DNA of 64,000 nt from Massilia sp. erpn (GTDB taxonomy: Bacteria > Pseudomonadota > Gammaproteobacteria > Burkholderiales > Burkholderiaceae_D). Position 1 is the stretch's first letter. Every line of letters begins with the position of its first letter. This document shows, piece after piece, positions 47,161 to 50,302 of this stretch. Location of the stretch: assembly GCF_024400215.1 (NCBI RefSeq), contig NZ_CP053748.1:5766001-5830000 (forward strand), written 5' to 3'. Position numbers and translations under genes: made by a program. The notes under the pieces are model-generated. The model did no database searches, was not told the origin of the DNA, and saw only the letters and a list, made by a program, of their open reading frames with translations.

Positions 47161-48114
47161 ATGCCAAAATTCGCAAAACTGCTTCCCGCCCTGCTGGGCG
47201 CATCCCTGCTCCTCCCTCTGCAAGCTGGCGCAACCACGATCGATCTGGGCGTGGCTTCCGGCTATAGCGGCTTCTTCTACGGCAACGCCAAGAACTTCAC
47301 CGACATTGAAGGCCGTCTGGCCGTCGGCGGCGACGTGACTGCCAGCGCCTCCATCGGCTACCGCGCGCCTTACGGCAGCAAAGGCCCAAGCCTGGTCGTG
47401 GGCGGCAACGTGAAACTGGGCGGCGGCGACATCTTCAACGGCCCAACCACCAATGTGAACACCAACGCTTCGGTCGGCCCCATCACCGAATACGACAAAG
47501 CGAAAGGCTACGGCGTCTATGGCGGCACCAGCCAGTCGGGCGCCCACCACGATCTGCGCAAGCAGACCGGCGTGGTGAACTTCGGCGCTGCCAAGACTCA
47601 GCTGACCAATCTGTCCTCCAACCTGGGCAAGCTGTCCAGCAACGGCCTGGTGGAAAAAAAATGGGGCAGCACCTACCTGACCGGCGACAATAAGTCGGAC
47701 ATCCAGGTGTTCACCGTCGACAGCAAAAATCTGTCCAACCTGTTCCTGCAGGACGTGAAAGCCGACGCCCACGTGGTGATCAATGTGATCGGCAACGGCG
47801 CCTTCAGCATCACCGGCGGCCAGGACGGCCAGCTGAAAAACCTGCGCGACCGTCTGCTGTACAACTTCGTCGACGCCAGCAGCGTGACCGTGGGTACCTT
47901 CGCCTACGGCACCATCCTGGCGAACAAGGCCGACATCCTCGGCGGCGGCCACCTGGAAGGCAATATCATCGCCAATTCCCTGTCCTCCGCGCTGGAAATC
48001 GGCTATGAGCCATACAAAAACATCAGCGCCGTACCAGAGCCACAGACCTGGGCCCTGCTGATGGGCGGCCTGGCCTTTGTCGGCTTCGCTGCACGCCGCC
48101 GCAAACAAGCCTGA
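47161..48114 (+). CDS. Choice-of-anchor-A PEP-CTERM protein
   Basis: A 317-residue surface protein: signal peptide (cleavage near AGATT), a choice-of-anchor A domain (GRLAVGGDVTASASIGY, VINVIGNGAFSITGGQ, GTILANKADILGGGHLEGNIIA), and a C-terminal sorting signal VPEPQTWALLMGGLAFVGFAARRRK (PEP motif, membrane helix, basic tail). Exosortase should process it after export, usually together with exopolysaccharide. No exosortase gene is in the window. A strong terminator follows. Confidence 0.93.
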   Translation: MPKFAKLLPALLGASLLLPLQAGATTIDLGVASGYSGFFYGNAKNFTDIEGRLAVGGDVTASASIGYRAPYGSKGPSLVVGGNVKLGGGDIFNGPTTNVNTNASVGPITEYDKAKGYGVYGGTSQSGAHHDLRKQTGVVNFGAAKTQLTNLSSNLGKLSSNGLVEKKWGSTYLTGDNKSDIQVFTVDSKNLSNLFLQDVKADAHVVINVIGNGAFSITGGQDGQLKNLRDRLLYNFVDASSVTVGTFAYGTILANKADILGGGHLEGNIIANSLSSALEIGYEPYKNISAVPEPQTWALLMGGLAFVGFAARRRKQA

Positions 48115-48135
48115 TCGCTGTCGCACGATCAGCAC

Positions 48136-48162
48136 AAGCGCCGCACATGCGGCGCTTTTTTT
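48136..48162 (+). terminator. Intrinsic terminator of the PEP-CTERM gene
   Basis: AAGCGCCGCA (48136-48145) and TGCGGCGCTT (48148-48157) form a 10-bp stem followed by an unbroken T-run to 48162, so the leuA leader downstream must have its own promoter. Confidence 0.92.
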
Positions 48163-48193
48163 ATGTTCCGAAGTTTGTACGGCCTTTTTCTGC

Positions 48194-48223
48194 TTGACAG
48201 CTGCAAAGTTCATCACTTACATT
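48194..48223 (+). promoter_or_regulatory. Candidate promoter of the leuA leader
   Basis: A perfect -35 TTGACA (48194-48199) and a -10-like TACATT (48218-48223) are 18 bp apart. Transcription would begin near 48229-48231, on or next to the ATG of the first leader ORF, so that ORF may be read from a leaderless mRNA end. Confidence 0.6.
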
Positions 48224-48230
48224 AAAGCCC

Positions 48231-48317
48231 ATGTTCACGCATCTGCATCTATCCGCTTTCCTGCTGCCGTTTGCTAGCGCCCTATCGCTAGCGACGCGCC
48301 TACTAGCACGCGCTTAA
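48231..48317 (+). CDS. Leucine-rich leader peptide 1 of leuA (28 aa)
   Basis: The ORF encodes MFTHLHLSAFLLPFASALSL followed by ATRLLARA. Eight of 28 residues are leucine, and five of these use CTA, a codon I found nowhere in frame in leuA itself. This is the pattern of a ribosome-stalling attenuator peptide for leucine. It has almost no ribosome site, but the predicted transcript start coincides with its ATG. A GC-rich hairpin follows at 48339-48360. Function is inferred from composition, rare codons and position. Confidence 0.65.
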   Translation: MFTHLHLSAFLLPFASALSLATRLLARA

Positions 48318-48338
48318 TCCGCGTTCTCTGTCGTACCC

Positions 48339-48360
48339 CGCGCCGGCCACGAGCCGCGCG
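48339..48360 (+). promoter_or_regulatory. Hairpin between the two leuA leader ORFs
   Basis: CGCGC (48339-48343) and GCGCG (48356-48360) with inner GGC/GCC can pair 21 nt after the first leader stop. No T-run follows. It could be part of an alternative fold set by stalling on leader 1. Confidence 0.45.
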
Positions 48361-48390
48361 AAGTCCCAAAACCCAGGAAAGATTGCACCG

Positions 48391-48519
48391 ATGTTCACAA
48401 CGGCCACCCCGACTCCATTCCGCGCAGGCGCTTCGACCGCCCTGACGGCTGGCGTGTGTGCGCCGCTGCGCCCTCTGCTGCCCCTACTGCTAAAACTACC
48501 GATCGGTTGCCTGGTCTAG
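48391..48519 (+). CDS. Leucine-rich leader peptide 2 of leuA (42 aa)
   Basis: A second ORF, also starting Met-Phe-Thr and with a good AGGAAAG ribosome site, encodes 42 residues ending in a leucine cluster [18 protein letters not shown]. Nine leucines are present, eight in the last 17 codons, and three are CTA. The stop codon is 88 bp before the leuA ATG. The last four sense codons form the left arm of a stable hairpin (48505-48542), so ribosome position would decide whether it folds. This is the stronger leader-peptide candidate. Confidence 0.7.
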
Positions 48520-48542
48520 CGCCCCGTGGCCACCAGGCAGCC
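48505..48542 (+). promoter_or_regulatory. Hairpin overlapping the end of leader 2
   Basis: GGTTGCCTGGT (48505-48515) pairs with ACCAGGCAGCC (48532-48542), 11 bp with one G-T pair. A competing pair GTGGC (48526-48530)/GCCAC (48547-48551) overlaps its loop and right arm. No T-run follows, so control would be Rho-dependent or act on leuA translation (ribosome site AGGAG at 48597-48601). Confidence 0.55.
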
Positions 48543-48607
48543 ATCCGCCACATGCCGTAGTCCGATCCGTTCGGCTTTCCCAATTTGAGAGACTCCAGGA
48601 GTACACC

Positions 48608-50302
48608 ATGATGTTGCAGAATCCGGCCGCCAAATACCGCGCCTTCCCCGCCGTTCAATTGTCCGACCGCCAGTGGCCCAACGCCGTCATCAGCAAACCG
48701 CCGATCTGGATGAGCACCGATCTGCGCGATGGCAACCAGGCGCTGATCGAGCCGATGAGCATCGAGAAAAAGCTGCGCTTTTTCGACCTGCTGGTGAAAA
48801 TCGGTCTGAAGGAAATCGAAGTGGGCTTCCCATCGGCTTCGCAGACCGACTTCGACTTTGTGCGCAAGCTGATCGACGAGAAGCGCATTCCGGACGACGT
48901 GACCATCATCGTGCTGACCCAGTCGCGCGAAGAGCTGATCCGCCGCACCGTGGACGCCGCCGCCGGGGCCAAGCATGCCATCGTCCATCTGTATAACTCG
49001 GTGGCACCGGTATTCCGCAAGGTGGTGTTCGGCATGTCGCGCGAAGAGATCACCAATATCGCCACCAGCGGCGCCAAGCTGGTGAAAGAGCTGCTGGCCC
49101 AGCATCCGGAAACCGAGTGGGGCTTCGAGTACACGCCGGAATCCTTCTCCACCACCGAGCTGGATTTCTCCAAGCATATCTGCGACGCCGTGAGCGCCAT
49201 CTGGCAGCCGACGCCGCAGAAGAAGATGATCATCAACCTGCCTTCGACCGTGGAGTGCAGCACGCCGAACGTATATGCCGACCAGATCGAATGGATGTCG
49301 CGCAAGCTGGCGCGCCGCGATGCCATCATCATCAGCGTGCACCCGCACAATGACCGCGGCACCGCCGTCGCCTCGGCCGAACTGGCCGTGATGGCGGGCG
49401 CCGACCGCGTCGAAGGCTGCCTGTTCGGCAATGGCGAGCGCACCGGCAATGTGGACCTGGTGACCTTGGCCTTGAATCTGTACACCCAGGGCGTGCATCC
49501 CGGCCTTGATTTCTCCGACATCGACTCGGTGCGCAAGCTGGTGGAGGAATGCAACCAGCTGCCGGTGCATCCGCGCCATCCGTATGTCGGCGATCTGGTG
49601 TTCACCGCCTTCTCCGGCTCGCACCAGGACGCGATCAAGAAAGGCTTCGCCCAGCAGCAGCCCGACGCGATCTGGGAAATCCCCTATCTGCCGATCGATC
49701 CGGCCGACCTGGGACGCAGCTACGACGCGGTGATCCGCGTGAACAGCCAGTCCGGCAAGGGCGGCATGTCCTATCTGCTGGAACAGGATTACGGCCTGGT
49801 GCTGCCGCGCCGCCTGCAGATCGAATTCAGCCGCGCCGTGCAGAAAGTGGCCGACCAGACCGGCCTGGAAATCACTTCCGAAGGCATTCACGCAATCTTC
49901 CAGCGCGAATACCTGGAGCAGACCGCGCCTTACGCCTACGCCTCGCACAAGATGGTGGAAGACAGCAGCAGCGACGAGCCGGTGCAGATCGATATCGCCC
50001 TGATCCACCGCCAGGCGCCATTGGCCCTGCAAGGCGGCGGCAACGGCCCGATCGACGCCTTCGTCGACGCCCTGGGCCTGGATATCAAGCTGATGGACTA
50101 CCACGAACACGCCATCGGCCACGGCGCCAATGCCAAGGCGGCCTGCTATGTCGAGCTGCGCCTGGAGCACGGCCCTACCCTGTTCGGCGCGGCCATCGAC
50201 AGCAATATCGTCACCGCCTCCTTCAAGGCCGTGCTCAGCGCGGTCAACCGCCAGCTGCAAATGAAGGAAGCGGCAGCGGCTAGCCAACAGGTAGCGGCTT
50301 AA
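48608..50302 (+). CDS. leuA: 2-isopropylmalate synthase (type 2 LeuA)
   Basis: A 564-residue enzyme of the long actinobacterial/betaproteobacterial LeuA type: [34 protein letters not shown], metal-binding [26 protein letters not shown], and a C-terminal leucine-sensing domain ([21 protein letters not shown]). It condenses acetyl-CoA with 2-oxoisovalerate, the first step of leucine synthesis. The AGGAG ribosome site is 7 bp upstream. It follows two leucine-rich leader ORFs and stands alone as a structural gene. Confidence 0.96.

Follow-up and report, generated by a model that had tools for sequence, protein, structure and literature searches.

Two leucine-rich leader ORFs and a covarying pseudoknot upstream of leuA: a candidate ribosome-read leucine gauge in Massilia and other Proteobacteria

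The 377 nt preceding leuA in the window (the whole stretch of DNA analysed, 64 kb in length) probably constitute a terminator-free leucine gauge read by ribosomes, composed of two short leucine-rich ORFs (ORF1 and ORF2) and an H-type RNA pseudoknot at the end of ORF2, in which an 11-bp stem (S1) is crossed by a 5-bp stem (S2). The two leader ORFs are not the product of chance, and their role as two leucine-sensing leaders of leuA is well supported by codon usage in the window and its relatives. The pseudoknot is the most conserved part of the leader, and it ties the locus to the LEU element of Actinobacteria. The original prediction had drawn attention to the two leucine-rich ORFs, whose coordinates and codon, leucine and CTA counts were found as described, to a terminator upstream of ORF1, which is present, and to the absence of in-frame CTA from leuA, a gene of 564 codons in which none of the 48 leucine codons is CTA. 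Two features escaped it, namely the promoter whose position makes a leaderless ORF1 probable and the covarying pseudoknot in which ORF2 ends. The features of the locus are collected in Table 1. The terminator probably serves the ORF upstream of it, which ends in VPEPQTWALLMGGLAFVGFAARRRKQA, presumably a PEP-CTERM-like tail.

Table 1. Features of the leuA leader and its surroundings, in positions of the window
Feature	Position	Strand	Remarks
Upstream ORF	47161-48114		adjoins the terminator on its 5' side
Intrinsic terminator	48136-48157		just 3' of the upstream ORF
Sigma-70-type promoter	48194-48223	+	TTGACA, 18 nt, TACATT
ORF1, leucine leader peptide	48231-48317	+	MFTHLHLSAFLLPFASALSLATRLLARA, then stop; 28 codons, 8 Leu, 5 CTA
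Helix P1, 5' strand (ORF1 nt 9-33)	48239-48263	+	complementary to the ORF2 start region; RNAalifold
Hairpin P2, between ORF1 and ORF2	48339-48360	+	predicted
ORF2 Shine-Dalgarno (CAGGAAAG) and start codon; also P1 3' strand	48374-48394	+	sequence
ORF2, second leucine leader peptide	48391-48519	+	42 codons, 9 Leu, 3 CTA
Conserved CTA leucine codon	48496-48498	+	6 nt 5' of the pseudoknot
Pseudoknot S1, 5' arm GGTTGCCTGGT	48505-48515	+	partner 48532-48542; covariation
Pseudoknot S2, 5' arm GTGGC	48526-48530	+	partner 48547-48551
Pseudoknot S1, 3' arm ACCAGGCAGCC	48532-48542	+	covariation
Pseudoknot S2, 3' arm GCCAC	48547-48551	+	
leuA Shine-Dalgarno CAGGAG	48596-48601	+	sequence
leuA, 2-isopropylmalate synthase, leuA_yeast class	48608-50302	+	TIGR00970, 787.6 bits, cut-off 697.4

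Over the long ORFs of the window, 38 in number with 16,902 codons in all, 0.7% of the leucine codons are CTA. Against this background the CTA excess is highly significant in both leaders (P = 9e-10 for the 5 of 8 leucine codons of ORF1 and P = 3e-5 for the 3 of 9 of ORF2, 8 of these 9 lying within the last 17 codons), leucine richness alone being weaker evidence (P = 0.006 and 0.02, respectively). In the 87 loci to which both ORFs could be assigned (that of the window included), CTA supplies 392 of the 679 leucine codons of ORF1 and 217 of the 570 of ORF2, and a single one of the 914 leucine codons in the available parts of leuA of the same loci. The frame test gave the same answer for both ORFs, with 392 of 419 CTA triplets in frame in ORF1 and 217 of 238 in ORF2, counts to be read knowing that the frame of ORF2 was set by its anchor codon, which places 86 of the 217 in frame by construction, and that the choice of ORF1 carried a small bonus for CTA count. 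When each of the 22 genera is represented by a single locus, the in-frame triplets number 94 of 97 for ORF1 and 55 of 58 for ORF2.

In the window's genus, pN/pS was 1.32 for ORF1 and 0.94 for ORF2 (0.94-2.49 in the other frames), which suggests that codons, rather than peptides, are kept there; a conserved micropeptide was thus left unsupported in this genus. Outside it, the ratio for ORF2 was 1.10 in frame 0 vs 2.19 and 2.25 in the other frames, a constraint that makes a peptide role possible in those genera. A 38-codon form of ORF2, starting with MHFK or MYFK and ending in ...IFARSL.LLPLPIGCLASR, recurs by eye in several of them (e.g. loci L036, L042 and L050), and this recurrence also suggests some peptide-level constraint.

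As for the start of ORF1, the promoter TTGACA-N18-TACATT ends 7 nt upstream of its ATG. By a rule permitting a gap of 4-9 nt between the -10 box and the ATG, a TTGAC-type promoter followed by a short ORF was found in 91 of 97 leuA loci from the family and the genus (that of the window included), and 86 of these 91 have a gap of 6-7 nt. At the usual distance between the -10 box and the transcription start, the transcript would begin at, or 1-2 bases from, the A of the ORF1 ATG. Hence, ORF1 is probably translated from a leaderless transcript. A leaderless leucine leader before leuA, leuL1, has been described in Streptomyces lividans and is reported as having no typical Rho-independent terminator (PMC8079986); leuL1 is a single leader, whereas the window has two.

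The pseudoknot is supported by compensatory changes in two alignments. In the first (A1, 60 loci of the family, G044 being excluded), 97.1% of the cells hold standard pairs and 7 pairs have changed on both sides, with 39 doubly changed cells against 6.6 after shuffling, a number that none of 500 shuffles reached. The second (A3) holds 45 further loci (44 distinct), mostly from outside the family and aligned to the covariance model R1, built on S1 and its flanks; 96.0% of its cells are paired, 8 pairs have changed on both sides, and 35 cells are doubly changed against 4.4 after shuffling (0 of 500), a covariation count that leans towards S1, to which A3 was fitted. Most of the covariation comes from S1, that of S2 being weaker (1 and 2 doubly changed pairs in the two counts, with 98.0% and 91.8% of the cells paired). 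The conservation of both stems suggests that S1 and S2 can form together, and they may well do so simultaneously, an alternation between the two being likewise compatible with the sequences. A first pseudoknot finder was excluded from all counts: at the 50 loci found by the model it returned no knot in 8 cases, another fold in 7 and a shifted S1 in 2, and at a number of loci it scored no higher than the best of six shuffles. A later finder chose a wrong helix at L215 and odd second stems at L163 and L214.

The distance between the knot and the last leucine codon varies little. In A1, 56 of the 60 rows have a 6-nt spacer and the other 4 a 5-nt one; S1 is preceded by a CTA codon in 86 of 87 loci, a proportion favoured by the choice of anchors (search patterns beginning C(T/C), 16 of 61 being set by eye at a CTA). 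Furthermore, the triplet 6 nt before S1 encodes leucine in all 45 rows of A3 (33 CTA, 8 CTG, 3 CTT and 1 TTA). The stop codon of ORF2 falls in loop 1 or in the S2 5' arm in 73 of the 87 loci and in the S1 5' arm in 3, the remainder lying before S1 (4) or beyond the S2 5' arm (7). Judging from the ribosome footprint, a ribosome awaiting tRNA-Leu at the last CTA would stand against an intact knot, and one at the stop codon would melt S1; the fixed spacing would thus yield a sharp prediction of the ribosome position that preserves the knot.

Loop 1 (48516-48525 in the window) contains an unpaired CC(T/A)NGCG-like run, kept in most proteobacterial knots, even where the ORF2 stop codon falls inside the run. 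In the Parvibaculum loci L180 and L181, which are alphaproteobacterial, loop 3 is long (23 nt in L180 vs 4-8) and holds a small extra hairpin, as seen by eye.

The conserved loop 1 run is what a riboswitch-like element might show, in which the knot serves as the binding site of a protein or small molecule and the leaders merely supply translation through it, and a binding protein was proposed for the LEU element by its authors (PMC1262725). Such a model does not need leucine codons in frame at a fixed distance from the knot, as found, and the run is absent by eye from four actinobacterial knots; a ligand-binding knot is therefore considered improbable.

Searches with R1 that covered more than 40 genomes were strictly filtered, so that their genome counts are lower bounds: at least 26 of 399 genomes of the order, at least 5 of 369 of the class and at least 5 of 398 of the phylum matched, the window's own genome, with its single match, being counted in each. 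Of the 85 family genomes that carry a leuA of at least 55% identity, 70 supplied loci for the comparison; scanning the remaining 15 with R1 gave 3 matches, one of them weak (E 0.006), in a scan that included two known negatives. From 60 genomes of the window's genus the 27 best new loci were taken. A leuA motif follows in each of the 34 model-match loci examined. Among the 80 best named leuA loci, the model finds the knot in 50. A looser, rule-based scan of 79 of these loci found a leaderless leucine ORF with the knot downstream of it in 31, one leaderless leader running into the knot in 4, a knot for which no leaderless ORF was found in 15, a leaderless leucine ORF without the knot in 12, and neither in 17.

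By these searches, two leaders followed by the putative pseudoknot occur in Oxalobacteraceae, in other Burkholderiales, in genomes outside this order and in Parvibaculum. The genera include Massilia, Duganella, Janthinobacterium, Herbaspirillum, Undibacterium, Methylobacillus (a weak model match, E 0.003), Cognatazoarcus and, for 2 of 3 loci, Parvibaculum (matches spanning only the S1 part of the model), among others; the full arrangement was also recognised by eye in three genomes outside the order. The arrangement is thus not limited to a lone betaproteobacterial leuA, the setting in which the original prediction had placed it, the same layout being found outside Burkholderiales and in Parvibaculum. 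In Achromobacter, Bordetella trematum and Cupriavidus, the knot module is accompanied by one leader (by eye), and in two Burkholderia loci an ORF1-like leader stands alone. In Proteobacteria of various lineages, leuA is marked by a covarying knot that has no Rfam match and whose geometry resembles that of the LEU element.

Seliverstov et al. 2005 (PMC1262725) found the LEU element upstream of leuA in the majority of Actinobacteria. It combines a leucine leader with a pseudoknot and a base stem, in which leucine codons pair with the leuA Shine-Dalgarno sequence and on which an alternative hairpin can also be built; its authors did not settle the mechanism and favoured a binding protein. The likeness was judged on four actinobacterial sequences: their leuA leaders have the same stem order, an S1 of 11-12 bp with at most one mismatch, a loop 1 of 7-11 nt and a loop 2 of 0-3 nt, and each of the four knots scores above 60 mononucleotide shuffles. 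Their last leucine codon lies 5 nt before S1 in three of the loci and 3-5 nt before it in Microbacterium, depending on where S1 is taken to start. Model R1 does not match these four leaders. The window's leader shares with the LEU element the position before leuA, a leucine leader, a conserved pseudoknot overlapping the leader end and the lack of an obvious terminator; moreover, the LeuA proteins of Nonomuraea and of the window both pass TIGR00970. It differs from the LEU element in its CTA codons, its conserved loop 1, an extra upstream leaderless leader and its occurrence in Proteobacteria, as well as in lacking a general base stem to the leuA Shine-Dalgarno sequence; as this stem was looked for and did not emerge, the element is not classed as a member of the LEU element. 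It looks instead like the proteobacterial counterpart of the LEU element, its nearest known relative. A literature search turned up neither this element in Proteobacteria nor a pair of leucine leaders before leuA; Lopatovskaya et al. 2010 and Vitreschak et al. 2004, both outside the scope of that search, may treat proteobacterial leuA leaders.

This likeness, in layout and in knot geometry, would suit a translational control of the LEU type (PMC1262725), in which the knot and the base stem would hide the leuA start and a ribosome stalled on the leucine codons would free it. Pairing between the leucine run and the Shine-Dalgarno sequence is strong, at -14.8 and -15.8 kcal/mol, in two of the actinobacterial loci, and reaches -8.2 and -5.6 in the other two; some of the present clades also pair well (-12.1 vs -8.9 kcal/mol for non-cognate partners in g27, -11.8 vs -7.8 in g19). 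Over 86 loci, however, cognate and non-cognate pairing are equal (-6.48 vs -6.43 kcal/mol, mean rank 0.52), and a longer window gave a mean rank of 0.45 over 87 loci; only in a few clades (g27, g19, g12 and g4) does the cognate pairing prevail, and the window's genus gives -6.1 vs -5.6. The base stem was accordingly rejected as a general feature. In addition, ribosomes masked onto ORF2 leave the accessibility of the leuA start unchanged in nested folds, which cannot represent a pseudoknot, the genus means being 0.48 for the free leader, 0.48 for a stalled ribosome and 0.54 for one at the stop codon. On this evidence, control through a hidden leuA start is unlikely, although it is a stronger contender than a ligand-binding knot.

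The original prediction had also proposed a relay between the two leaders. Its leucine-sensing pair is well supported by frame-specific CTA codons and wide conservation; the relay, like the graded or two-checkpoint response envisaged with it, is still conjectural, with a conserved ORF1-ORF2 helix in the window's genus in its favour and, against it, both the covariation of that helix and its distribution. For 31 leaders of this genus, RNAalifold predicts a helix (P1) between ORF1 nt 9-33 and the Shine-Dalgarno sequence and start of ORF2. In these 31 loci the cognate duplex reaches -18.6 kcal/mol vs -10.4 for non-cognate ones (rank 0.01; rank 0.02 against codon shuffles), and AGGAAAG lies 8 or 9 nt upstream of the ORF2 ATG in all of them. 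Clade g16 resembles the window's genus, and g12 and g19 also stand out against codon shuffles. P1 is not general, a rank of 0.1 or less against codon shuffles being confined to 4 of 22 genera; in 48 loci of five genera it covaries no more than shuffles do, and in only 22 of 87 loci do 5 or fewer of 100 codon shuffles match the pairing of the whole ORF1. A general coupling helix was for these reasons rejected, and within the window's clade, where the covariation is not significant, coupling of ORF1 to ORF2 is plausible from the predicted folds. Support for the hairpin between the ORFs (P2) is modest: 11 doubly changed cells against 5.9 after shuffling, with 6 of 500 shuffles as high, and a number of doubly changed pairs not above that of shuffles. 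Two short ORFs in one leader have been described for the mgtM/mgtP tandem attenuators of Salmonella mgtCBR, whose signals are ATP and proline (PMC3641672); those attenuators answer two different signals, whereas both ORFs of the window are leucine-rich, and no common descent is claimed.

The leucine gauge considered probable at the outset could operate as follows. ORF1 would be translated from the extreme 5' end of the mRNA and, being rich in rare CTA codons, would gather a queue of ribosomes at low levels of charged tRNA-Leu. Pairing between the beginning of ORF1 and the start region of ORF2 is possible in the window's clade, and such queued ribosomes would there keep ORF2 open. Ribosomes translating ORF2 would then reach its CTA codons, the last of which lies 6 nt before the 11-bp plus 5-bp knot. 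A ribosome starved at this codon would stand against the knot, which would stay folded, and one reaching the ORF2 stop, mostly located inside the knot, would melt the first stem. A folded knot, as a sign of leucine shortage, would turn leuA on, and a melted one, as a sign of plenty, would turn it off; both the response to starvation and its sign are what we infer from the arrangement. In its most specific form, namely a two-stage, terminator-free gauge in which a queued leaderless ORF1 licenses an ORF2 whose last leucine codon parks a ribosome against the knot, with a knot module common to Proteobacteria and Actinobacteria that carry the same leuA class, the proposal is tentative and its odds fall short of even. 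If true, it would represent a distinct class of attenuation, with the knot as the switch in place of a terminator or a hidden start site, and with the knot reporting a single ribosome position.

In four Herbaspirillum-type loci the ORF2 stop directly follows the CTA, so that the knot-melting step would be smaller there. Leader mutations before leuA of Streptomyces coelicolor, whose effects are reported to be inconsistent with classical attenuation (PMC1262725), are counted against this best explanation, and so are three close relatives with ORF1 only (L010 in genome G067, L136 in Massilia eburnea and L137 in Duganella sp. CF458). In these relatives neither ORF2 nor the knot was found, and leuA starts within about 80-100 nt of ORF1, as in natural losses.

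The last step towards leuA can be only a first guess, Rho-dependent termination on the C-rich leader being the candidate. The leader contains 144 C and 92 G, an excess reached by 0.2% of windows; taken by segment, single leader segments rank at 5-8% and the stretch after the knot at 28%, so that the C richness fits Rho-dependent termination as weak evidence. Leaders of the TnaC/SpeFL type undergo Rho-dependent termination within the leader. Downstream of the knot, T makes up 0.19-0.23 of the sequence in 85 Oxalobacteraceae-type loci and 0.36-0.43, in T-rich tracts, in 16 Alcaligenaceae- or Cupriavidus-type loci, which means that the last step may differ between lineages. A programmed frameshift from ORF2 into leuA was also considered and rejected: an uninterrupted reading path that joins the leuA frame exists after a -1 shift in 10 of 86 loci and after a +1 shift in 23, too few for a conserved path into leuA.

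Leader-peptide control of amino-acid genes is a textbook subject, mostly involving intrinsic terminators. The enterobacterial leu operon has a short leader peptide with leucine codons before leuA, its LeuA being of another class than that of the window, and differs from the present locus, which lacks an intrinsic terminator and has a pseudoknot and two leaders. In two genomes of one genus of the family (G008 and G050, loci L067 and L068), a short leucine ORF follows a promoter-like site about 160 nt before leuA, and downstream of it come a G+C-rich hairpin with a T run and no knot that could be found, an arrangement that resembles classical attenuation.

These two loci, the T-rich tracts after the knot in the 16 loci mentioned above and a leucine leader with rare CTA codons would all suit the classical attenuation of the enterobacterial leu operon, which acts through an intrinsic terminator. 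In the window, however, no terminator-like site was found between 48163 and 48607 (search region 47900-48900), which covers the stretch from ORF1 to leuA, and the T fraction after the knot stays at 0.19-0.23 in the Oxalobacteraceae-type loci. Nor did Rfam give any match at the gathering threshold over the whole 64 kb, and its five sub-threshold matches include no leucine leader. For the window, classical attenuation has therefore only a slim chance, comparable to that of a ligand-binding knot, and the terminator-free gauge is preferred.

Natural loci with ORF1 only, with the knot module only or with both would allow the parts to be compared in soil bacteria. In locus L023 (G018), the last 80 nt before leuA hold an inverted repeat, GGGGTCGGAGCCC...GGGCTCTGACCCC, in place of the knot region, which looks like a repetitive element. 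Finally, genome G402 has a second knot match (L124), upstream of a second leuA-like gene.
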